Assembly: GCA_000953735.1 (NCBI GenBank)
Contig: LN554852.1
Location: 1,747,846-1,811,845 of the forward strand
From: Moritella viscosa
GTDB lineage: Bacteria; Pseudomonadota; Gammaproteobacteria; Enterobacterales; Moritellaceae
DNA length: 64,000 bases
Direction: 5' to 3'
In this document: positions 1 to 9,468 of the stretch, in pieces
Position numbering within the stretch: the stretch's first letter is position 1
How the letters are laid out: each line of letters opens with the position of its first letter
Notes under the pieces: model-generated
What the model was told of the DNA's origin: nothing
Database searches by the model: none
The model's input: the letters and a program-made list of their open reading frames with translations, nothing else
Made by a program: the position numbers and the translations under genes

Positions 1-11
1 AAAAACCTAAT

Positions 12-860
12 ATGGGATTCATGACTGATACTGGCTGGCATCAACTCACGAACAGATCTGCCGCAGATTATCGTATCGGTCACCTGTTTGTTGGCAAAGA
101 TGCTATCGCGTTGCACCGAACATTATCAGCAGCAGTCAAAAATATTAAAGAGATGCCGTGTAAATACATCACCTTGCCTAACAGTGAAATAACGGTATTT
201 GAAGTCGAGAGCAAAACAGTACAAGCCAAAGACAGCCTGTTTTTAGATATGGCGTCTTTATCTCAATGGGGTGAACTGTCATTACCTGAAACTGTGTGGC
301 AGGCATTCAATCGTTTCTCTTGTTGGATTGAACCCGTACTTGTCAGTGAGTGGATGAAAACTATGAAGGGTTATCAGGGTAACAAAAGCCCTGAACAGCA
401 ATTCGCAATCGTTAATTCATTAGATTGGTTAGAGGCTAAGCGTTCAACAGTCGAGAGTCGTGAACGTTTTAAGCTGTTACAGCAGGTACAAAGTCAACAA
501 TGTGTGTGGTCTGGTAAGGTTTTAAAACAAAAATTTGCAATAGATCACTGCATGCCATTTTCACGTTGGCCGAATAACGATTTGTGGAATCTATTACCGA
601 GTGATAGTGACGTGAATAGCAAAAAAAGCGATAGTTTACCCACAGCTAGAAAGCTCAAAGACGCTAAACCACGTATTATAGATTGGTGGCAACAAGCTTG
701 GATAGATGATGACATACAATCAACACGATTTTTTGCCGAAGCTAATATTGCTTTGCCGGGGCTAACTATTAACAACACGTCTATTGATGATCTTTTTGAA
801 GCGCTGGAATTACAACGCGGGCGATTAAAAGAAATGCAGCAGTTGAGGGAGTGGGGGTAG
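12..860 (+). CDS. HNH endonuclease family protein, possibly 5'-truncated by window edge
   Basis: A 282-residue protein with an HNH-type nuclease region near residues 164-210. The visible motif is Cys164-Val-Trp-Ser-Gly, then Asp178-His179, an Asn-Asn/Asn-Leu segment around 188-193, and a closing Asn202-x-Lys-Lys-Ser-Asp. This order fits the beta-beta-alpha metal nuclease fold, in which the histidine activates water and the later Asn and Lys/His residues hold the metal and phosphate. The N-terminal 150 residues match no family I recognise. The frame stays open to base 3, so the true start may lie before the window. HNH proteins of this kind are common in defence islands, and the viperin cassette 2 kb downstream agrees with that. 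The substrate, and whether this is a restriction, homing or stand-alone nuclease, cannot be read from the sequence. Confidence 0.72.
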   Translation: MGFMTDTGWHQLTNRSAADYRIGHLFVGKDAIALHRTLSAAVKNIKEMPCKYITLPNSEITVFEVESKTVQAKDSLFLDMASLSQWGELSLPETVWQAFNRFSCWIEPVLVSEWMKTMKGYQGNKSPEQQFAIVNSLDWLEAKRSTVESRERFKLLQQVQSQQCVWSGKVLKQKFAIDHCMPFSRWPNNDLWNLLPSDSDVNSKKSDSLPTARKLKDAKPRIIDWWQQAWIDDDIQSTRFFAEANIALPGLTINNTSIDDLFEALELQRGRLKEMQQLREWG

Positions 861-992
861 TAGTAATTATCGGGTTAAAGTGTGCGATATGCCTTATAGG
901 GTATAAAAACTGTTATAAAAATAGTGGTTGAATATAAAGTGTTTTTCTAATGTGATATTATTCAATGACTTATTATTTACACTGGAACAATA

Positions 993-1682
993 ATGGAAAC
1001 CTTACAACCTGTCAATGACGATGGAAATAGTTTAAAAACATCAACTACAACCTCTGAAAGTAAAGACAAAATAGAACCAGAAATTACATCAGAGCCCCAA
1101 AATATTACCAAACCTGAATTTATCCCTAGGGAAATTGAATTCCTTAATTGGCATCGTGGCAAGCTTAGACTATGTGATCCTAAAGGTGTATATAAATTCA
1201 GGCATATCAAACCAACGTTATTTCAATCATTTCTTCAGCTCATAACGATGCTGATATCATCAGCCAGTTTGTTCTACTGTTACTATTTAACTTACACGGA
1301 ACCGAAATTTTTAATTGCCGGTGTGGGTGAGGTGTCAAGTCTGACCTGGGTTGATGTCCTTGCGTTTATCGCTATTGCCGTGATCATTGTCACCGCATTG
1401 AAAAATCTTGGTATACAGTTAAAACAACATTACTTGAAATCGTATTTACTGGCGATGTTTTCTAACTCTTTAAATCGAGTTATATTGAATAATGTACGTA
1501 TTTTTATTCTTATAGGGGTGGGTATTGTTGTGGGCATTCAAGATCCAACATATGAAACGATAGATTTAGAGTTTCTTAATGAAGGCGTTATTGCTGATAT
1601 TTTTTCCGCATTATATTCATTACTTACAGTCATTATAACTTTCCGTGCATTTCGGTTTTGTCGCAAGGAACTAGCAGAATGA
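993..1682 (+). CDS. Multi-pass inner-membrane protein of unknown function
   Basis: I do not recognise this 229-residue protein. The first 55 residues are hydrophilic and rich in Ser, Thr, Glu and Lys, followed by a basic stretch. Four hydrophobic segments then appear near residues 75-97, 112-136, 160-177 and 195-215, so it is probably a polytopic membrane protein with a cytoplasmic N-terminus. GGAACA a few bases before the ATG could serve as ribosome-binding site. Its stop overlaps the next start (ATGA), so it is translationally coupled to the small exported protein that follows. It sits between an HNH nuclease and a viperin cassette, and a role in the island is possible but unsupported by any motif. 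Confidence 0.6.
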   Translation: METLQPVNDDGNSLKTSTTTSESKDKIEPEITSEPQNITKPEFIPREIEFLNWHRGKLRLCDPKGVYKFRHIKPTLFQSFLQLITMLISSASLFYCYYLTYTEPKFLIAGVGEVSSLTWVDVLAFIAIAVIIVTALKNLGIQLKQHYLKSYLLAMFSNSLNRVILNNVRIFILIGVGIVVGIQDPTYETIDLEFLNEGVIADIFSALYSLLTVIITFRAFRFCRKELAE

Positions 1683-1984
1683 GACTGCTATTTATCATAT
1701 TATCCTTAGTATTGTCGCTGAACTGTATGGCTAGTGCATCAGTGCCCTCAAAATATAAGGATATTGCCAGTCAAGTAAATCGTATTGATCTAATTATGTT
1801 TGATAAAGCGGAACTTATGGAACTAGGTACATGCGTTGGTGTTGAGTTAGCAAAACATAACAAGCTTGAAAATTTGTCAGAAGCCTGTGATGAGGTGGTT
1901 GAAGATAGAATAAATCCTTTGGGTATGCTTAGTTTAAGCAAAAAAGAGGCTGTTCAAATGGGGCAAGAGCTGTTAATACATTGA
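1679..1984 (+). CDS. Small exported protein, unknown function
   Basis: The start at 1679 overlaps the upstream stop codon by an ATGA junction. Starting there puts a clean signal peptide first: basic Met-Arg, a leucine/isoleucine-rich core, and an Ala-Ser-Ala type cleavage region around residues 18-21. The mature part is about 80 residues, acidic and helical in character, with two cysteines (Thr-Cys-Val and Ala-Cys-Asp) that could form one disulphide. No known domain is recognised. Coupling with the preceding membrane protein suggests the two act together at the inner membrane and periplasm. Confidence 0.6.
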   Translation: MRLLFIILSLVLSLNCMASASVPSKYKDIASQVNRIDLIMFDKAELMELGTCVGVELAKHNKLENLSEACDEVVEDRINPLGMLSLSKKEAVQMGQELLIH

Positions 1985-2048
1985 GAGAGAGTGGGAAAAT
2001 ACTCTCTTCTCGCGAAGCTATTCGTGACGTATTGTGTAAGGTATCACG

Positions 2049-2804
2049 ATGATAACGCCAACAAATTCATCAACCGAAACTCGTTCAATTAATGAGTGTG
2101 CCAAACATTTTCTAAAGCTTGTGAACAAACCATTGCCGACAAAACTACACAGTGCTTTAAATACTGTTTTTACCAAGCCAAGGGATGATGACAAACCTGA
2201 AATAAAGGCTTTCAGAAAGCGAGTTATTGTTACGGTAAAAGGCTATGGTAATGATCATTATCAAATTATGAGCGGGAAGGCTAATGCGATCTATAATGCT
2301 CTGTGTTTGATCGCGATTGTCGGTGTAGGGCCAACGAAAAAAATTTTTCAGTATGCAGTACAAACACCGAAGAAAACCAATGTGTTGACCCGGCTTGAAC
2401 AGAATCCGGAGCAAGCGTTGATCTTTTTTTGTCTTGGAGTTCAATCATCCAATCTTGCCAGTATAGAAGCACTGTTATTGTCTGATAATTTTGATCTGTT
2501 TAGTCAAAAATTACCGTCTCCTTTTAGCGTAGATGATAATGATCAGTATAACTTAACGCCGATGCTCGCTTTTTTTGATAAAAAGATTCCCTGGCCGGAT
2601 TATGTTGCTGATTACCAATGTGCAGCGGCAAGCTATGAAAAGAAAGCATTTGATCTCGCCAAGTTGCAACTTGCGGCTCTGAAAGAGAAGGCTGTAATCC
2701 CCTTACCCGTCGTTACGGCGTTAAGTCGTAGGATTGCTGCTAATGAAAAAGAGGCTGATGAGGCGTTTACCTATATACAGTCATTATTAAACTCTTCATT
2801 ATAA
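2049..2804 (+). CDS. Hypothetical cytoplasmic protein, 251 residues
   Basis: I do not recognise this protein. It has no signal peptide. A hydrophobic segment around residues 80-95 (Ala-Leu-Cys-Leu-Ile-Ala-Ile-Val-Gly-Val-Gly) is too short for a confident membrane helix. The second half is alpha-helical, rich in Ala, Leu and Lys, and could be a repeat-type scaffold. A short inverted repeat (AGAGAGT...ACTCTCT, 1986-2007) precedes it. The gene ends 65 bp before the viperin gene, and the gap holds two inverted repeats, so it may or may not share that transcript. It is a candidate accessory member of the cassette. Confidence 0.55.
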   Translation: MITPTNSSTETRSINECAKHFLKLVNKPLPTKLHSALNTVFTKPRDDDKPEIKAFRKRVIVTVKGYGNDHYQIMSGKANAIYNALCLIAIVGVGPTKKIFQYAVQTPKKTNVLTRLEQNPEQALIFFCLGVQSSNLASIEALLLSDNFDLFSQKLPSPFSVDDNDQYNLTPMLAFFDKKIPWPDYVADYQCAAASYEKKAFDLAKLQLAALKEKAVIPLPVVTALSRRIAANEKEADEAFTYIQSLLNSSL

Positions 2805-2815
2805 AATAATGCTTT

Positions 2816-2832
2816 ATTGTTCCCGGAACAAT
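2816..2832. promoter_or_regulatory. 17-bp perfect palindrome upstream of viperin
   Basis: ATTGTTCC and GGAACAAT arms flank one central C. The arms are perfect and almost touch, which suits a dimeric repressor site better than an RNA stem. It lies between the stop of the upstream gene and the viperin start and could control the cassette. No cognate regulator was identified in the window. Confidence 0.4.
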
Positions 2833-2838
2833 ATCATG

Positions 2839-2867
2839 ATAACTCCTGTTAACTAAACAGGAGTTAT
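2839..2867 (+). promoter_or_regulatory. 12-bp hairpin sequestering the viperin ribosome-binding site
   Basis: ATAACTCCTGTT (2839-2850) and AACAGGAGTTAT (2856-2867) are perfect reverse complements with a 5-nt loop. The only good Shine-Dalgarno, AGGAG at 2859-2863, lies wholly in the 3' arm, seven bases before the ATG at 2870. Folded RNA would hide it, so translation of the viperin is probably gated. With few uridines after it, it is a poor intrinsic terminator. A DNA operator is the alternative reading. Confidence 0.6.
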
Positions 2868-2869
2868 TT

Positions 2870-4027
2870 ATGAAAACATTTACCCCGTTAAATGAATTAG
2901 TCATCAACTACCATATCACTGAGGCCTGCAATTACGCTTGCAAGTTCTGTTATGCAAAATGGAATAAGCCTAATGAGTTACACAGTCAAAACGATCAGGC
3001 TGAGCAATTATTACAGCAGCTAGCTGATTTTTTTATCAAAAATAGGGATAACCTAGTCCAGCAACAAATGCCTTACCGTAACGTTCGGCTTAATTTAGCT
3101 GGTGGCGAACCGCTTATCTTAAAGCAGCGCTTTGCTGAAATAGCTAATAAAGCGGTTGAGTTGGGTTTTAATTTGTCCTTGATCACCAACGGGCACTACC
3201 TCACCAATGAATTTATCGATAACTATGCCAGCTTGTTTTCGATGATTGGGATCAGTTTCGACAGTCAGTTCAGTTTGGGCCGTATTCAAATAGACCGTGT
3301 TGATCGTAAAGGATATTCGCTGACCAACAGAGAGCTGCTCAGTAAAGTTGCGCGATTACGTGCCGTTAATCCTGCGATTAAAATTAAAATTAATACAGTC
3401 GTTAATTCGGTAAATCAAGATGAAAATTTTAACCAACTTATTACCCAAATAGCACCATATAAATGGAAAGTATTGAGAGTACTTCCAGTACTTAATTATA
3501 ATTTAACCATAAGCAAAGCCCAGTTTGGTGCTTTCGTTACACGCCACAGCAAACTACAACAACTAATGTCAGTAGAAGATAACCAGAGCATGATTAATTC
3601 ATATTTAATGCTCGATCCTAAGGGGCGTTTTTACAAAAATAAAATGGTAGATGGTGATTATCAATACAGCGATTGTCTTCTTGAAGGCGGCGTCAAAGCT
3701 GCACTCATACAAGTGAACACGAATTGGCAGCGTTTTGCACAGCGTTATCAAACAGAGAGCAAATCATTTTTTCGAAAAGCTAACAAAATAAAGTTATTAC
3801 CTGATTTTCTACAGATAAAAAGTGCGGGAGTTGCAACAAAGTTAGCTGAAGGTATTCATCCCCAATCGCTAGGAGCAAAGAAGATCCGCTGCTTGCCTAA
3901 ACTGTACCGTATCCGCATTAGCTATAGCTACCGCGTGCTTATTGGTTTGGAAGATAACCACTGGACGTCATTGGGTCTTTATTCCCGTCAAAGCTTTACC
4001 ACCTTATTAAATCGTCGAAGGCGCTAG
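2870..4027 (+). CDS. Prokaryotic viperin (radical SAM ddhNTP synthase) with C-terminal RelE/ParE-like domain
   Basis: Residues 8-293 match the viperin family throughout. They include Asn-Tyr-His-Ile-Thr before the radical SAM cysteines C20-x3-C24-x2-C27, Ala-Gly-Gly-Glu-Pro at 77-81, Thr-Asn-Gly at 106-108, Ile-Ser-Phe-Asp-Ser at 128-132, Lys-Ile-Asn-Thr-Val-Val-Asn at 173-179, Trp-Lys-Val-Leu at 199-202 and Ser-Tyr-Leu-Met-Leu-Asp at 244-249. The last two blocks are typical of viperins rather than other radical SAM enzymes. Known viperins turn CTP, and in bacteria also UTP or GTP, into 3'-deoxy-3',4'-didehydro nucleotides that stop viral RNA synthesis. Residues 299-385 form an extra domain resembling RelE/ParE toxins, with Leu-Tyr-Arg-Ile-Arg-Ile-Ser and Tyr-Arg-Val-Leu-Ile in its centre. 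The protein is about 80 residues longer than usual. The viperin call is strong; the toxin-fold call is inference from pattern. Confidence 0.88.
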   Translation: MKTFTPLNELVINYHITEACNYACKFCYAKWNKPNELHSQNDQAEQLLQQLADFFIKNRDNLVQQQMPYRNVRLNLAGGEPLILKQRFAEIANKAVELGFNLSLITNGHYLTNEFIDNYASLFSMIGISFDSQFSLGRIQIDRVDRKGYSLTNRELLSKVARLRAVNPAIKIKINTVVNSVNQDENFNQLITQIAPYKWKVLRVLPVLNYNLTISKAQFGAFVTRHSKLQQLMSVEDNQSMINSYLMLDPKGRFYKNKMVDGDYQYSDCLLEGGVKAALIQVNTNWQRFAQRYQTESKSFFRKANKIKLLPDFLQIKSAGVATKLAEGIHPQSLGAKKIRCLPKLYRIRISYSYRVLIGLEDNHWTSLGLYSRQSFTTLLNRRRR

Positions 4028-4076
4028 TCATAAGGACTGCGCACTTTTAATTTAACAAACAATAAGGAAATACAAA

Positions 4077-4214
4077 ATGACTAAAAAAATCAAACCTCAA
4101 GACAATGCTGCGAATCAACCAAATGCAAACAAGGGTTCTTCTGGTACGAACCGCCAATACGATCAAGCCCAAGGTAACCGTGGTAAGCAAATACAGCAAA
4201 AAAATAAAAAGTAG
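4077..4214 (+). CDS. 45-residue basic, Gln/Asn-rich small protein
   Basis: ATG at 4077 follows an AAGGAAA ribosome-binding site. The product starts Met-Thr-Lys-Lys-Ile-Lys and is rich in Gln, Asn, Lys and Gly, with no hydrophobic core and so probably disordered. It lies 49 bp after the viperin stop and is followed by a strong hairpin. Small Asn/Gln/Lys-rich proteins of this look occur in marine gammaproteobacteria, but I know no function. It may be part of the cassette or an independent gene caught between cassette members. Confidence 0.6.
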   Translation: MTKKIKPQDNAANQPNANKGSSGTNRQYDQAQGNRGKQIQQKNKK

Positions 4215-4237
4215 TGTTAATTAACAATAAATAGGAA

Positions 4238-4264
4238 AAGTGCTCATAGCAAATATGAGCACTT
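4238..4264 (+). terminator. Strong hairpin between the small ORF and the second radical SAM gene
   Basis: AAGTGCTCATA and TATGAGCACTT form a perfect 11-bp stem with a 5-nt loop, followed by AATTTATT. The short uridine content makes it a weak terminator or an attenuator or processing site that could lower expression of the downstream genes relative to viperin. Confidence 0.5.
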
Positions 4265-4289
4265 AATTTATTACGATGGAATTCAAGAC

Positions 4290-5537
4290 ATGAACAAAAT
4301 TAAACTCGCTTTATTAGTGACCTTTGATTTCACTCAAAGAGGAAAAAGCGGAACCGGATTTGCGGCCGGCAGCTTATTATCAGCCTGCTGTAGTCACGAG
4401 CAGTATGGGAAACAGTTTACTATTGAGCATTTAGCCATACCTATGTCGACTGTTGCTAAAGAACGATTATCAGTAGCAAAGATTGTCGATGAGATCCGTC
4501 AATCTATACCTCTTGCTAACTTAGATAGTCTGGCATTGGCTTGTTATGTTTGGAGTTCATCACTTATTGAACCCATTATTAAATTATGCCGAGAGTATGG
4601 GTTTAAAGGAAAAGTGATACTTGGTGGTTACCAAATTAACAGTAAAAGTTGTCGAGAGCTTTATCCTAACGGTGACTTCTATATTCCCGGATACGCTGAA
4701 GCATCATTACCGGAAGCTATCCTTGACGAATATTCGATTTCGAGTCGAATTGTCGATGTCCCTGTTAACTTTGAAAAATTGGCATCCCCTTATTTAGATG
4801 GCAGCTTAATGCTAGATCAAGGACAAGATATGATCCATTGGGAAACACGTCGAGGTTGTGTCTTCAAATGTAACTTCTGTGCTCACCGAGACCTTAAAAA
4901 TAAAAAGGTACATCTACTTGGTATGGATAAAATAAAGCAAGAGCTAGACCTGTTTAAACGAAAAGACATTAAGAAAATTAATGTACTTGATCCGATTTTC
5001 AATAATGAAACAAATCATAAAGAGATCCTTAAATACGCGATTGAAATCGACCTAACTGCATTGTTGTCATTACAGGTGCGTTTCGAGCGGATCAATGAAG
5101 AATTTCTCGAACTTTGTTCACAGCTGAATGTTCATTTGGAGTTTGGCTTACAAACTGCTGTGAAAAGTGAATCCCAAATTATTGAAAGGGCAAATAACAT
5201 GAATAAAGTAGATAAGAGCATTGCCTTAATACAGCAATGGCAGCAGCCTTTTGAAGTCAGCCTGATTTACGGATTACCGGGTCAGACGGTCGACAGCTTT
5301 CAATACAGCATTGAATATTTACAGCAAAGAGGTGTAACTATTATTAAAGCTTTTCCGTTGATGTTACTCGAAGGCACTCAGTTATTTGAAGATAAGAACA
5401 AGTTTAATGTAACCGAAGATCTTATTGATGATAGTGGTATTCCACATGTAGTAGCTTGCGATAGTTTCACCCGTGGTGAATGGAAACTGATGCATCAATA
5501 TGCCCAAGATTTATCTATATCAGAGGACGCTGCATAA
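4290..5537 (+). CDS. Radical SAM protein with B12-binding-like N-terminal domain
   Basis: Residues 190-197 carry the [4Fe-4S] motif C190-x3-C194-x2-C197 in the context Arg-Arg-Gly-Cys-Val-Phe-Lys-Cys-Asn-Phe-Cys-Ala-His. The barrel continues with Glu-Phe-Gly-Leu-Gln (strand 4) and Tyr-Gly-Leu-Pro-Gly-Gln-Thr near 310, as in B12-radical SAM and MiaB/Elp3-like enzymes. Residues 75-145 look like the Rossmann part of a cobalamin-binding domain (Gly-Lys-Val-Ile-Leu-Gly-Gly-Tyr), but the classical Asp-x-His-x-x-Gly cobalamin motif is not evident. The substrate is unknown. It ends one base into the nucleotide kinase gene (TAATG), so the two are translationally coupled. A maturation step on the viperin product or modification of an RNA or nucleotide is a reasonable hypothesis, not shown. 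Confidence 0.8.
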   Translation: MNKIKLALLVTFDFTQRGKSGTGFAAGSLLSACCSHEQYGKQFTIEHLAIPMSTVAKERLSVAKIVDEIRQSIPLANLDSLALACYVWSSSLIEPIIKLCREYGFKGKVILGGYQINSKSCRELYPNGDFYIPGYAEASLPEAILDEYSISSRIVDVPVNFEKLASPYLDGSLMLDQGQDMIHWETRRGCVFKCNFCAHRDLKNKKVHLLGMDKIKQELDLFKRKDIKKINVLDPIFNNETNHKEILKYAIEIDLTALLSLQVRFERINEEFLELCSQLNVHLEFGLQTAVKSESQIIERANNMNKVDKSIALIQQWQQPFEVSLIYGLPGQTVDSFQYSIEYLQQRGVTIIKAFPLMLLEGTQLFEDKNKFNVTEDLIDDSGIPHVVACDSFTRGEWKLMHQYAQDLSISEDAA

Positions 5538-6121
5538 TGTTTATCGTAATAGAAGGACTTGATGGCGTAGGTAAATCAACGATCACGAAGGCGTTAGCTA
5601 CAGCGATTGATGCCGTGGTGCTAACAACACCTGGAGATAATTTTAAAGGCATACGTGATCAGTTAGAGGTTATTTATCAGGACAACCATCAGGCAAGACA
5701 ACTATTTTATATGTCGACTGTAGTTAGCATATCTGAGCAAGTACGTGATCTCATTAGTAAAGGAAAGAATGTTATTGTTGACCGTTATTGGCTATCAACG
5801 CAGGTTTACCATCACTGGAAAAGTGATAATAGTCATTTCGAACTATTGGATGTGGAAAAAACTTTATTGGTACCTGATATTACGTTATACCTTGAATTAT
5901 CCCTAGAGCAACGGAAGAAACGTTTATCTGGCCGTACAGTAAATACTGTGGAAGATAACCTTACTCTGACTGAAACCGTAGATACTGAACTAAACAATCT
6001 ATATGACCAGTATAGCAATGCAAGTATTACTGGACGTTGGCTTCATGTTGATGCTAACGCGACAATTGCTGACATAGTCAAAACAATATGCAATAAACTG
6101 CAAGAATTTGAACAAGGATAG
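5537..6121 (+). CDS. Thymidylate kinase-like nucleoside monophosphate kinase
   Basis: The 194-residue protein begins with a P-loop, Gly-Leu-Asp-Gly-Val-Gly-Lys-Ser-Thr at residues 7-15. It then has the Asp-Arg-Tyr motif of dTMP kinases near residue 87 and a LID-like Leu-Glu-Gln-Arg-Lys-Lys-Arg-Leu segment near 125. Length and order fit the TMPK family. The ATG at 5537 overlaps the upstream stop by one base and has AGAGG before it, so the longer reading from 5480 is unlikely. Vertebrate viperin sits beside CMPK2, also a TMPK-like kinase, and bacterial viperins are known to lie near nucleotide kinases. Here it probably supplies the nucleoside triphosphate used by viperin or phosphorylates its product. 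It is unlikely to be the housekeeping tmk because of this context. Confidence 0.87.
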   Translation: MFIVIEGLDGVGKSTITKALATAIDAVVLTTPGDNFKGIRDQLEVIYQDNHQARQLFYMSTVVSISEQVRDLISKGKNVIVDRYWLSTQVYHHWKSDNSHFELLDVEKTLLVPDITLYLELSLEQRKKRLSGRTVNTVEDNLTLTETVDTELNNLYDQYSNASITGRWLHVDANATIADIVKTICNKLQEFEQG

Positions 6122-6126
6122 TCAAA

Positions 6127-7041
6127 ATGAAAACAGAATTAACGTTTGCGGTACTCGTGGATGCTGAAAATGCCTCACATAATGATTATATGGCGATGTT
6201 AGAGGAAGTTGAAAATTACGGCACTGTCGCGATTAAGTGGGTGTACGCAGATTGGACCGATCCACATCAAAAAGCATGGAAAAACATTTTACACGAAACG
6301 GCATCAAGCCCTAAGCAGCAGTTTCACTATGGTAAGGATGCTGCTGATCATGCACTGATGATGGATGCAATTGAAGTCACTAATAATAACTCGCGTGTTA
6401 ATGCTGTTTGTATCGTATCAAGCGATGGCGGGTTTTATAGTGTCGCACAGCGTATTAGAGAATACGGCATACACGTCATGGCCATTGGTAAGAAAAATAC
6501 TCCAGAACGTTTTAGAAGAGCATGTCACAACTTTGTATTCATCGATAATTTATTTGAAGTTACTCAAAGTAATTATAATGATTTAGATACGCTATTGTTG
6601 AATGCTTACGATCGCTGCGTAGAACGAAATGATCCTGTTTATCTGGGTGATATGGGAAGTATGATTAAGCAAATTAATTCTTCTTTTGATCCTCGAACTG
6701 AGGGTTTTCAGAGTTTGAAGAAACTGATTAAAAGTAGAGACTCGCTCTTTGATATTGTGCAAGAAACCAGTGATCGCTGTTTTATCGCATTGAAATCTAA
6801 AAATACCACAGATAAGACAAATGCATTGAGCGGAAAAGTGCGTAAATGGGAACCAAAGAAAAGATTTGGTTTTATTAAATCGAAGGGTGGGGATTATTAT
6901 TTCAATGCCCGTGAATTACAAAGCAGTGAACGAATGATCAGAGAAGGAATTACGGTCACTTTTAATGTTGCAAACGTTTCTGATGCTAAAGCTAAAAAAG
7001 ACAGCGAAAGTCCATCTGCGTTCAATGTTGTTATTGCTTAG
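6127..7041 (+). CDS. NYN-domain ribonuclease with LOTUS and cold-shock domains
   Basis: Three domains follow in order. Residues 5-145 are a LabA/DUF88-type NYN (PIN-like) domain with the expected acidic residues: Asp12 in Val-Asp-Ala-Glu-Asn, Asp80 in Met-Met-Asp-Ala, and Asp100 in Ser-Ser-Asp-Gly. Residues 150-224 resemble an OST-HTH/LOTUS domain (Asp-Met-Gly-Ser-Met-Ile-Lys-Gln, then Leu-Lys-Lys-Leu). Residues 234-304 form a cold-shock-like OB fold with an RNP1-like Lys-Arg-Phe-Gly-Phe-Ile-Lys-Ser. NYN domains cleave RNA; LOTUS and cold-shock domains bind RNA. The gene starts 5 bp after the kinase stop and is the last gene of the run. An RNA-cleaving effector or RNA-quality partner of the viperin system is inferred. 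Confidence 0.83.
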   Translation: MKTELTFAVLVDAENASHNDYMAMLEEVENYGTVAIKWVYADWTDPHQKAWKNILHETASSPKQQFHYGKDAADHALMMDAIEVTNNNSRVNAVCIVSSDGGFYSVAQRIREYGIHVMAIGKKNTPERFRRACHNFVFIDNLFEVTQSNYNDLDTLLLNAYDRCVERNDPVYLGDMGSMIKQINSSFDPRTEGFQSLKKLIKSRDSLFDIVQETSDRCFIALKSKNTTDKTNALSGKVRKWEPKKRFGFIKSKGGDYYFNARELQSSERMIREGITVTFNVANVSDAKAKKDSESPSAFNVVIA

Positions 7042-7150
7042 GGGGGCATTTTTACTGGGTATCGCTCAATTTAACCCTGTATTCGATATATGATTATGGA
7101 ACTTATATCAGCATTCAGTAATATCATATATAGATTATAAATTATCAGCG

Positions 7151-7501
7151 TCATTCAATCTTTTTGTGGCAACACTCACTAAGCGGACAATGCTGACATT
7201 GAGGAATCTTGGTGCAGTAGCGTTTGGCGTGTTCAACCAGCAAAGCATGGTATTGCTGATAGGTGGTGATGTTTTGTGGAATGTTATGCTCTAGCATTAA
7301 TCTGAGTTTATCATAACCTGTTGGCAGTTCGAGCCCTACGCGATGTAGGATGCGGCGGGTATAATTGTCGATGATGAAAAAAGGCTTATCTAGGGCATAA
7401 ACAAGCATGCAGTCAGCCGTTTCTGGGCAGATTCCATTAACGGCGAGTAGCTCATTACGCAAGGTTGTCCCTTCGATGTTGGGTGTTGTTGTTTTAAGCA
7501 T
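7151..7501 (-). pseudogene. Truncated endonuclease III-family (HhH-GPD) glycosylase remnant
   Basis: The 116-residue product matches only the C-terminal half of an Nth/MagIII-type glycosylase. It keeps a helix-hairpin-helix (Leu-Leu-Ala-Val-Asn-Gly-Ile-Cys-Pro-Glu-Thr-Ala), the catalytic-Asp segment Ile-Ile-Asp-Asn-Tyr-Thr-Arg-Arg-Ile-Leu, and a cysteine cluster at the end (Cys-x5-Cys-x2-Cys then Cys-Cys) for a [4Fe-4S]. About 100 N-terminal residues are missing. The same frame reads on upstream to about 7580, then meets a stop with no glycosylase N-terminus. It therefore looks like a deletion remnant at the edge of the viperin island, although expression from the internal Met cannot be excluded. 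Confidence 0.65.
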
Positions 7502-7689
7502 AGCGTTTGAGGTCGTTTTGTTGAAATTAGGAATGCTGCATACATCGAAGATATGTGGATAAAGATATAAATTCCCCTATAATCTTGTTAACTTGGTGAT
7601 TGATATGGATATTGTCGTGGTACATGCAGACAAATCGCTTAGTTTAACCATTCATTAATGCGTTTATAATTCTGATTAGGATATTTTTA

Positions 7690-8604
7690 GTGACTAGTTT
7701 ATTTGAAAACACACTTAATATAGCGAAAGACATAGAACCAAATGACGTATTAGTGAGCCAAGTACTCGATCAAATAAAAGGGCTTTTACCTGCACATAGT
7801 TATACCGAGTTTATTGTCAGAGAGTCATCTTCAATAACATTAGCAACAGTGCGAGAAGGCGAGTCCCCTTGTATTCTAGTTATTAATGGGTATCTCTCGA
7901 AAGAGGGTAGAGACATGTCAGACTGGCTAAGTGTTGTTGATGAACTGTATCCTAAAAACAAGATTATTCATGTGCGCTGGAACGCGGGTAATGTTACCGA
8001 CATCGCGCTTGATGACAGTAACATTACTGGTGATGTGAAAGATACAGATGCAGATAAATGGTTGGCGGCCGCAACGCTTGCAAGAGATATGAGTCCAGCA
8101 GATTTTGCAGCTTTGGTTGGTGAGATTGTCACAGATAAATTCGTCGGGCACTGGAAAAAATCGTTTAACGAAACATTGCATGCAGGGCATGATTTAGCGA
8201 AAGCAATACAAGATGACGAGCAATTACAGGATGCGATCTTAATGGGTTATTCATTAGGTGCGGTCGTTGTTTGTCAGGCATTGAACAGCCTTGATGCGAA
8301 TAAAGTCACCGCTTGCTATCTTTTGGCGGGGGCTGTGTCTGCTGAAGCGGAACAATGGACACCTATCTTAGAAAAACACACGGATCTGCGTCTGATCAAC
8401 TGTTACAGCGATAATGATGATGTATTAAAGAGTGCATACGGCGCAGGGACGATACTTGATCATAAACCTGCAGGGCTGACTGAAATAGAAAACAGTAATA
8501 CGAAGCAAGTGGTGAATTTAAATGTAACAGAATATTCACCAGGGCATATGAACTTTAAAAACGAAAAAGTCGGTAAAGCATTGGCGAGCATTCTTAAGCC
8601 TTAA
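7690..8604 (+). CDS. DUF726 (TMCO4-like) alpha/beta hydrolase
   Basis: GTG start at 7690 with AGGA about 8 bases upstream. The 304-residue protein has the DUF726 pattern: Val-Ile-Asn-Gly-Tyr-Leu-Ser-Lys-Glu near residue 64, a strand then Val-Arg-Trp-Asn, the nucleophile elbow Gly-Tyr-Ser-Leu-Gly-Ala near residue 187, Leu-Ala-Gly-Ala-Val, then Asn-Cys-Tyr-Ser-Asp-Asn-Asp and a closing Gly-His. The Ser, Asp and His form a plausible triad. There is no signal peptide or membrane anchor. The substrate is unknown; lipids or esters are the usual guess for this family. It appears to be a single-gene unit. Confidence 0.75.
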   Translation: MTSLFENTLNIAKDIEPNDVLVSQVLDQIKGLLPAHSYTEFIVRESSSITLATVREGESPCILVINGYLSKEGRDMSDWLSVVDELYPKNKIIHVRWNAGNVTDIALDDSNITGDVKDTDADKWLAAATLARDMSPADFAALVGEIVTDKFVGHWKKSFNETLHAGHDLAKAIQDDEQLQDAILMGYSLGAVVVCQALNSLDANKVTACYLLAGAVSAEAEQWTPILEKHTDLRLINCYSDNDDVLKSAYGAGTILDHKPAGLTEIENSNTKQVVNLNVTEYSPGHMNFKNEKVGKALASILKP

Positions 8605-8703
8605 ACCCTAATATGTGAATGATTTTACGCTCTATGGCTTATATAGAGCGTGAACTGAAAATTGGTTTGAGATTAGCTTATTTGATCAACATGTCGAGTA
8701 GGG

Positions 8704-9468
8704 TTAGTAAGATCTATTGAAACCGCCATCCAATAGTATATTCTGACCAGTCATATGATTAGATAAGGGACCCATCAAAGCTAGGATTGCGCTAGTCACC
8801 TCGTCAACAGATGCATACTTTTGTAGCGGAATATTCGATACTTCGTCTTCCATCAATTTTTCAAAACTGAGATTATTGGCTTTTGCCTTTGCATGCATTT
8901 TATTTGTGTAACTTTCAGTCATTACACCTCCCAATGAAATAGTATTCACTGATACTTTGTTAGAGGCAAGCGAAAGTGCCATCGTTTTAGCTTGTCCCAG
9001 CCAAGCACTTCTTAGGCAGTTATTTAGTGAGTAATTTGTAAGTGCTGTTTTAGAGCTAAGACCGGAAATGAATACTATTTTACAACCTGAGTTTATAGCT
9101 GATTTTTCGACTAATTTTCTTATTAATCTTAACGGTAAAATAAAGTATTTTTCATATAACTCCCGCCAGACTTCATCATCGGGAAATACTTCAGAAGATG
9201 CTGGAATTCGTGGAATTATAAAGACGACACCATCAAAACCATCTCCGTTTGTTGCAAGTTCAGCACATTTGTCTATTGAATCAGAACTGAAAAAATCTAG
9301 TTTTGCTGTTGTAACACAACCTTGCCTATTTACGAGCAAGGATTTGTGTAGTTCTGATAATTTTTTTTCATCACGACCAGTTATGAATAAATTGGTTTTT
9401 GGACTTATTGCTTTAGAAATTTCTGAACCCATATTACTGGTTGCACATGTAATTAAGACATTTTTCAT
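8704..9468 (-). CDS. Short-chain dehydrogenase/reductase family protein with altered active site
   Basis: A 254-residue Rossmann SDR. The N-terminus (Leu-Ile-Thr-Cys-Ala-Thr-Ser-Asn-Met-Gly-Ser-Glu) is a modified nucleotide-binding loop. The fold then runs through the Ile-Ser-Gly-Leu-Ser-Ser strand and ends with Gly-Gln-Asn-Ile-Leu-Leu-Asp-Gly-Gly, a very typical SDR terminus. The catalytic Tyr-x3-Lys reads Tyr-Ser-Leu-Asn-Asn, so the lysine is replaced by Asn, and the usual central Asn-Asn-Ala-Gly is also not evident. It may be weakly active or a non-catalytic binding protein. It lies 6 bp after a LytTR gene on the same strand and is AT-rich, so the pair looks acquired together. Confidence 0.75.
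   Translation of the reverse strand: MKNVLITCATSNMGSEISKAISPKTNLFITGRDEKKLSELHKSLLVNRQGCVTTAKLDFFSSDSIDKCAELATNGDGFDGVVFIIPRIPASSEVFPDDEVWRELYEKYFILPLRLIRKLVEKSAINSGCKIVFISGLSSKTALTNYSLNNCLRSAWLGQAKTMALSLASNKVSVNTISLGGVMTESYTNKMHAKAKANNLSFEKLMEDEVSNIPLQKYASVDEVTSAILALMGPLSNHMTGQNILLDGGFNRSY

Follow-up and report, generated by a model that had tools for sequence, protein, structure and literature searches.

A candidate antiviral locus of Moritella viscosa stacks a viperin-RelE fusion and a PDC-M51 pair, two effector types found behind shared upstream modules with hairpins at the effector start

Why should a single bacterial locus carry a viperin, a second radical SAM enzyme, a nucleotide kinase and a predicted RNA-binding nuclease side by side? 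This arrangement lies in a 64,000-nucleotide (nt) stretch of the Moritella viscosa genome (G000, 5.09 Mb), referred to here as the window. A preliminary description had placed the four proteins on one strand and proposed them as a new composite of antiviral genes. Profile matches confirm all four proteins and their positions on the forward strand, and the locus is still best read as an antiviral cassette of viperin type that includes a nucleotide kinase, whereas a conserved four-gene composite was not borne out. We propose instead, with moderate confidence, that the locus is one case of a modular, inducible nucleotide-analogue defence in which translation of the effector genes is gated by an upstream module. 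A RelE-fold domain on the viperin, a small open reading frame (ORF) of 45 residues, the upstream genes at 993-2804, a hairpin at the viperin start and the match of the second radical SAM enzyme and kinase to the PADLOC candidate PDC-M51 were all absent from that description.

Viperin and PDC-M51 behind the same upstream modules

At E of at most 1e-40, a count over 394 genomes of the order gave viperin in 23 and the radical SAM enzyme PDC-M51A in 7. The nine distinct radical SAM loci combine this order survey with two named Vibrio loci (L016 and L017) from a scan of species genomes, in which the third match (L015) is the G049 locus again and is not counted separately. The 22 viperin neighbourhoods are those of the two Moritella genomes with the cassette, G000 and G103 (locus L011), and stretches from 20 of the 21 other viperin genomes (G108 was left out; the viperin contigs of G111 and G354 are only 4.2 and 3.4 kilobases long).

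The same upstream modules adjoin either effector. The 235 type, consisting of a membrane protein (278-307 residues), a secreted-type protein (141-170 residues) and a protein of 223-235 residues, precedes viperin in L098, L099, L100 and L102, and its gene order and sizes recur beside viperin in two named Pseudoalteromonas plasmid loci. In L013 it precedes a RelE-fold gene, a 50-residue ORF, the radical SAM gene and the kinase gene. The CHAT type, consisting of a CHAT-domain protein of about 900 residues, proteins of about 307 and about 200 (203) residues, and a RelE-fold gene, precedes the radical SAM and kinase genes in L009, L010, L012 and the Vibrio contigs L016 and L017, and precedes viperin in L095. 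PDC-M51 therefore takes the place of viperin behind the same modules, and the window stacks both. The second radical SAM enzyme is thus tied to viperin by more than adjacency, as had been suggested, even though conserved co-occurrence of the four genes fails: in the stretches fetched, 20 of the 22 viperin loci lack the radical SAM gene and 18 lack the nuclease gene. A conserved four-gene system was rejected, because viperin and PDC-M51A occur together in just two of the 394 genomes, both Moritella (G000 and G103).

The window module has the order membrane, secreted-type, 251-residue protein (TM-sec-unk), which is also the order in L011, L066 and L067, where homologues of the 251-residue protein are 54-55% identical. 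It is linked to the 235 type by its secreted-type protein, which matches the 170-residue protein of that type in profile comparison (probability 98.4, E 7.2e-15). The secreted-type gene (1658-1984) ends about 55 residues early, at 108 residues compared with 165-167 in three Moritella relatives, and the module may therefore be impaired in the window strain. A third viperin partner is a divergently oriented protein of about 890 residues, of which the L093 copy matches PADLOC Ankyrin (1307 bits); proteins of this size stand in the same place in L094, L096, L097 and L104 and are alike by eye only. The L093 kinase is a match to PADLOC VakA. In L093, L094 and L096, a run of G followed by a CACTTTTCATTT-like stretch lies before the viperin genes that diverge from this protein and is a possible operator.

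The viperin itself is a clear member of its family (PADLOC pVip PDLC02904, E 1.1e-103, match from residue 8 or 9 to 294; NCBIfam NF038283, 322 bits against a cut-off of 180), and its CxxxCxxC motif, CNYACKFC, is present in all 12 aligned viperins (the window's and 11 relatives). The viperin domain occupies residues ~1-294 (2870-3751) and is followed by a RelE-fold domain of about 91 residues (~295-385; 3752-4027), which matches ParE_like PF24732 at 27.3 bits (cut-off 24.4). The fusion recurs at 92% identity in G103, that is, in two of the 12 aligned viperins. When the domain was modelled alone with three relatives (predicted local distance difference test, pLDDT, 76.9), the top solved match was RelE of Methanococcus jannaschii (template modelling, TM, scores 0.62/0.67, Foldseek probability 1.00, though with E 0.012); YafQ ranks lower, and the two together span TM 0.59-0.67. 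The fused domain is a second predicted RNA-related part of the cassette besides the nuclease. A RelE-fold domain is found in three of the 22 viperin loci (two fused, and a separate gene in L095) and immediately before the radical SAM gene in eight of the nine radical SAM loci, two of these being the viperin fusion. The 45-residue ORF that follows in the window is identical in L011 and has an 84% identical homologue over 37 residues in L013, again between the RelE-fold and radical SAM genes; it is present in three of the nine radical SAM loci and absent from six. A 74% identical match to it lies inside a hypothetical protein of integron-type resistance cassettes on the Klebsiella plasmid LC621169.1.

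The radical SAM protein (above the cut-off of Pfam Radical_SAM; PADLOC PDC-M51A, E 3.5e-172) and the kinase (Thymidylate_kin, E 4.1e-22; PADLOC PDC-M51B, E 5e-77) are adjacent, in the PADLOC order, and match both models end to end. The combination had been put forward as undescribed, but this pair is already a PADLOC candidate. The PDC candidates of PADLOC stem from a 'guilt-by-embedding' screen, according to the part of PMC12988326 consulted, and no open-licence paper naming PDC-M51 was found. The near-zero gaps from 4290 onwards were confirmed as a 1-nt overlap followed by 5 nt, with the kinase gene likely starting at 5537, where it shares one base with the radical SAM stop codon, rather than at the ORF start 5480. 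The cluster motif of the radical SAM protein is CVFKCNFC, with three cysteines invariant in seven of seven sequences. The kinase keeps its P-loop (by eye) and scores 78.5 bits against dTMP-kinase TIGR00041, below the cut-off of 83.25, compared with 204.9 bits for the genome's own Tmk; it is distinct from the housekeeping enzyme. The kinases that accompany the two effector types are related: PDC-M51B and VakA, the viperin-associated kinase, reach 40-53 bits in mutual comparison; the window PDC-M51B scores 35 bits against its own Tmk, and the Vibrio-type kinases are less clear (44-57 bits versus 45 bits in the same VakA and Tmk comparison). Pairwise scores favour a closer relationship of PDC-M51B to VakA than to Tmk, but the tree does not resolve it, and this relationship was rejected. 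Among the nine radical SAM loci, eight have the kinase, eight the RelE-fold gene, eight an upstream module, three the nuclease gene and two the viperin. A search of the phylum gave PDC-M51A matches in 46 of 398 genomes, of which only G000 (571 bits) and G005 (567 bits) are member-like; the other 44 (at most 156 bits) were taken for another subfamily of B12-type radical SAM enzymes and left out of every count.

Exchange at a fixed site in Moritella

An HNH-domain gene lies to the left of the cassette position in 10 of 11 Moritella genomes, and to its right the ten loci differ in cargo: L062 has almost nothing before the right flank, L063-L065 and L068 hold large genes that are unrelated, L012 has a CHAT cassette, and two genomes have the window-type cassette. 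L066 and L067 carry the window's module followed by a 160-residue gene, together with either a 122-residue gene or a gene for a Thg1-like (tRNA-His guanylyltransferase) protein of 288 residues, and the nuclease gene. Between the window and G103, the synonymous divergence (dS) of the effector block is 0.10-0.30, compared with 0.75 for the nuclease gene, 1.55 for the membrane gene and saturation for the 251-residue gene; the block has thus moved as a unit inside a fixed frame. The corresponding ratios of nonsynonymous to synonymous divergence are 0.18 for the viperin, 0.29 for the RelE-fold domain, 0.12 for the radical SAM enzyme, 0.17 for the kinase and 0.09 for the nuclease, and such low values in all five coding parts argue that these are not chance ORFs. 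Phage carriage of the cassette was rejected: the radical SAM enzyme had no relative in viral contigs and just distant partial matches in phage records, while the phage search returned no match to the RelE-fold domain and one distant stretch for the viperin. No DNA match to the cassette was found in Escherichia coli, and a plasmid search for the 307-residue and RelE-fold proteins gave no matches.

The nuclease contains a NYN domain (Pfam, 100.1 bits, E 2.1e-28) and an OST-HTH domain (29.0 bits), both above cut-off as the preliminary description had assigned them, whereas its CSD region stays below the Pfam cut-off (20.7 against 27 bits) and matches PADLOC CSD_V at E 1.5e-7. Homologues occur in four of the 22 viperin loci within the stretches fetched, those in L096 and L097 at 61% identity, and the gene is present in 5 of 11 Moritella genomes, always at the site right of the HNH gene. 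Similar proteins occur in 357 plasmid records, and the three neighbourhoods viewed showed mixed neighbours; the role of this common protein is for that reason the weakest part of our reading. G103 has two copies (L011 10546-11460 and 15133-16047) around a few genes, as if the gene marked an exchange edge. A protein of 116-122 residues, 64-76% identical to the one in L066, lies 3' of viperin in L094, L095, L096 and L097, and the same family stands before the NYN gene in L066, L096 and L097.

A possible, if unlikely, alternative is a defence hotspot on the downstream side of the HNH gene, in which chance has made neighbours of three mutually independent systems, viperin, PDC-M51 and the NYN gene. 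The varied cargo of this site in the other Moritella genomes viewed, the rarity of both effectors in one genome and the mixed company of NYN proteins elsewhere would all be expected of such neighbours, and the NYN gene is what this explanation fits best. However, in other families and at unrelated sites either viperin or PDC-M51 is found behind these modules, the RelE-fold domain to which the viperin is fused stands before the radical SAM gene elsewhere, and the effector block shares one low dS. The features of the locus are collected in Table 1; the glycosylase of the right flank has longer homologues (ORFs of 197 and 230 residues) in L011 and L067.

Table 1. Genes and sequence elements of the Moritella viscosa locus, in window coordinates (a point marks elements given without a strand).
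Feature	Position	Strand	Basis or remark
HNH-domain protein (~590 aa), C-terminal half	12..860	+	Left flank, outside cassette; core gene, ORF extends upstream of window
Membrane protein, upstream (presumed sensor) module gene 1	993..1682	+	Hydrophobic stretches by eye
Small secreted-type protein, upstream module gene 2	1658..1984	+	Profile match to 235-type 170-aa protein
251-aa protein, upstream module gene 3	2049..2804	+	Homologues in L011, L066, L067
Palindrome TATTGTTCCCGGAACAATA	2815..2833	.	Perfect 9-nt arms
Hairpin, 12-bp perfect stem and 5-nt loop	2839..2867	+	Folding z, conservation in relatives
Viperin fused to RelE-fold / ParE_like domain	2870..4027	+	Profile matches; fusion also in L011
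45-aa ORF	4077..4214	+	Identical protein in L011, homologue in L013
Hairpin, 11-bp stem, between 45-aa ORF and radical SAM gene	4238..4264	.	Scan; counterparts in L013, L011
Radical SAM enzyme with B12-binding-type N-terminal region, PDC-M51A	4290..5537	+	PADLOC, Pfam
Thymidylate-kinase-like nucleotide kinase, PDC-M51B	5537..6121	+	PADLOC, Pfam
NYN - OST-HTH/LOTUS - CSD-like protein, predicted RNA-binding nuclease	6127..7041	+	Pfam; homologues in L096, L097
Endonuclease III/MutY-type glycosylase fragment	7151..7501	-	Right flank, outside cassette; all matches far below cut-off

Hairpins at the effector start

At the start of the effector stands a hairpin that differs from one module type to the next. 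In the window, the hairpin ends 2 nt before the viperin ATG and its 3' arm contains the AGGAG ribosome-binding site. Its folding z-score is -6.8 over an 86-nt stretch, for which none of 200 shuffles was as good, and -5.7 over the 48-nt start region. The stem is identical in L011 and recurs with one G-U pair in L066 and L067, right after the 251-residue gene. These two loci (L066 3530-4209; L067 14500-15180) hold the window's module and hairpin without a viperin, and the hairpin is followed by a 28-codon ORF (MKTYTAS...NELVLN) that resembles the viperin start by eye and looks like a remnant of it. The palindrome upstream of the hairpin has a 15-nt core that occurs once in the genome and is kept in L011 with one flank difference, while one left-arm base differs in L066 and L067.

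In the CHAT type, a stem before the RelE-fold gene includes only part of the ribosome-binding site and is paired in 98.3% of 59 cells. Three of its 10 pairs have changed on both sides, compared with 0-1 in slid controls, and 2 of 500 shuffles equalled its covariation score. In the 235 type, the element is about 77 nt long and combines a small hairpin with a two-part stem closing on AGGAG. It precedes VakA and, a second time, an ORF of 37 codons that shares 8 nt with the start of viperin (six of six loci), which is a coupling layout; the L013 variant stands before an ORF of 43 codons that shares 11 nt with the RelE-fold gene. Pairing holds in 97.6% of 170 cells, with double changes in two pairs, both in L013, and none in slid controls, but 16-48 of 500 shuffles were as high on the covariation measures. 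A covariance model of the element, run over 41 sources (639,767 bases, window included), recovered its own 10 copies; the remaining hits were shadows on the opposite strand and weak ones at E 0.049 or higher.

By folding energy, seven of the nine starts of RelE-fold genes reach a z of -4 or lower, including those of L009, L010, L016 and L017, which are near copies. The minimum among 20 control genes was -1.9, and 6 of 255 background genes reached -4 or below, three of them in this system. A terminator was rejected as an explanation of the viperin hairpin, which the terminator scan did not list; the other two types lack a run of T after the stem. The hairpin between the 45-residue ORF and the radical SAM gene is terminator-like on both strands by a simple scan, with the same hairpin in L011 and a similar one in L013. 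No known RNA family was found in positions 1-9000 of the window at E up to 0.1 or in eight loci at gathering scores.

That the strongest hairpins stand at RelE-fold gene starts would also suit a toxin system, in which a putative RelE-fold effector cleaves mRNA on the ribosome, the hairpin restrains the toxin, and a secondary role falls to viperin and to the radical SAM pair. The fold match to RelE and YafQ agrees with this, as does the report, in the part of PMC10865869 consulted, of RelE genes beside viperins. We nevertheless regard a toxin system as distinctly unlikely, given that the 235-type hairpins precede VakA and the viperin leader ORF, without a RelE-fold gene, in six loci, that most viperin loci lack the RelE-fold domain, and that no antitoxin-like gene was recognised beside it (the 45-residue ORF was not tested as an antitoxin).

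A proposed mechanism and its meaning

In the gated nucleotide-analogue defence that we favour, the upstream module, with its membrane, secreted-type and 251-residue proteins, would be the infection sensor. The hairpin would sequester the ribosome-binding site of the first effector gene and keep its translation low, and probably in this way keeps the cassette switched off. Since the type of hairpin goes with the type of module, a module member, or something released by the module, probably opens it. Once translated, viperin would make a 3'-deoxy-3',4'-didehydro (ddh) nucleotide, while the B12-type radical SAM enzyme and the thymidylate-kinase-like kinase would make a second modified nucleotide and bring it to the triphosphate level. 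Both products should stop phage polymerases, with the RelE-fold domain and the NYN-OST-HTH-CSD protein acting as RNA-directed accessories. In relatives, the modules are shared by viperin and the PDC-M51 pair as alternative effectors, both of which are stacked in Moritella. The viperin step follows the chemistry of the family, which converts CTP, UTP or GTP to the ddh form. This chemistry is also stated for viperins in the part of PMC10865869 consulted.

For the radical SAM enzyme, the closest solved relative by profile is CysS, the cystobactamid methylase (E 1.5e-22, positions 68-409), followed by TokK; the NCBIfam KedN5 family matches at 8e-17, far below cut-off. The model of the protein also matches the folds of AprD4, TsrM and OxsB, so that its likeness to these five enzymes lies in profiles and low-confidence fold matches, the latter at 14-19% identity. 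Of these, OxsB produces the antiviral oxetanocin, starting from a deoxyadenosine nucleotide, and AprD4, a diol dehydratase, removes a sugar hydroxyl. An OxsB-like reaction was rejected as the leading candidate for the radical SAM enzyme, since its profile match to OxsB reaches no better than E 0.035. Three kinds of product, a nucleotide that is C-methylated, ring-contracted or deoxygenated, would all be compatible with a chain terminator. Least probable of the explanations weighed is that the radical SAM enzyme and the kinase serve a pathway without nucleotides and yield some other small molecule or a cofactor: natural-product pathways often contain B12 radical SAM C-methylases, and CysS and TokK lead the solved relatives, but no other biosynthetic genes adjoin the radical SAM gene, a nucleotide-kinase-type partner is present in eight of nine loci, and the enzyme takes viperin's place in the modules.

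Several points weigh against the gated nucleotide-analogue defence. Gene content, module exchange, the fusion, the covarying hairpins and the movement of the effector block are seen in the sequences, and sensing, gating, chemistry and the antiphage effect of the cassette are parts that we infer. Cobalamin use and a nucleotide substrate are only candidate properties of the radical SAM enzyme, whose match to Pfam B12-binding PF02310 (16.0 bits) is below the cut-off of 32.1 and whose model is poor (pLDDT 56.6), its fold matches being weak support; in G079 (L014), one of the nine loci, the enzyme stands alone, without kinase, RelE-fold gene or module. Viperin loci L101 and L103 lack all of the modules, and 8 of the 20 fetched viperin loci, from other families (L105-L111 and L089), have none of these neighbours. 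In reverse searches of 389 genomes, the 235-residue family was found in five (four beside viperin, one beside PDC-M51) and the 307-residue family in four (three beside PDC-M51, one beside viperin), but the seeds came from viperin or radical SAM loci, all nine matches are those loci, and the counts of 5/5 and 4/4 show only the absence of further copies. The window's 251-residue protein matches the 235-residue family weakly (probability 10.9, E 0.0028), and its membrane protein has no profile match to the 235-type counterpart and no Pfam match. Among the hairpins, the CHAT-type sequences are few and include three near copies, the hairpins of L012 and L013 are weak by folding energy (z -1.7 and -2.7, respectively), and none of nine plain viperin starts reaches z -4.

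Much of what surrounds this locus is already known: pVip, VakA, Ankyrin and PDC-M51 are PADLOC entries. The window viperin is a pVip with CxxxCxxC and a thymidylate-kinase-like kinase nearby, as with VakA in PADLOC, but its kinase is PDC-M51B and not VakA, and it differs in the C-terminal RelE-fold fusion, the stacked second radical SAM enzyme and the hairpin-controlled start. PADLOC defines PDC-M51 by two genes only, whereas a RelE-fold domain lies upstream in eight of the nine loci including the window's, an upstream module is present in eight, and viperin in two. In human RSAD2 (viperin) with CMPK2, a radical SAM enzyme is likewise paired with a nucleotide kinase, although the kinase family differs, and we know of no upstream module or hairpin there. 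RelE and HicA toxin genes adjoin pVip genes in the part of PMC10865869 consulted; those RelE genes are adjacent, whereas the RelE fold of the window is fused to viperin and common to a second effector type. The exchange of PDC-M51 and viperin, the viperin-RelE fusion and the hairpins were not found in the open-licence literature; the neighbour tables of Bernheim 2021 and Shomar 2024, which lie outside that scope, may list some of the modules.

As PDC-M51 takes the place of viperin behind the same modules, it probably yields an antiviral nucleotide that is new, and this so far unnamed candidate becomes a testable prediction. Tentatively, and with less assurance than for the gated defence in general, we suggest that PDC-M51 is a second, viperin-independent class making such a nucleotide, which uses viperin's sensor modules and module-specific hairpins opened by the sensor, and that Moritella fires both effectors together, its viperin being equipped with an mRNA cutter of RelE type. 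Viperin, usually seen as a single-gene defence, would gain candidate sensors and a candidate switch, and this switch opens the question of how chain-terminating nucleotides stay off until infection. New natural antiviral nucleotides are of broad interest.

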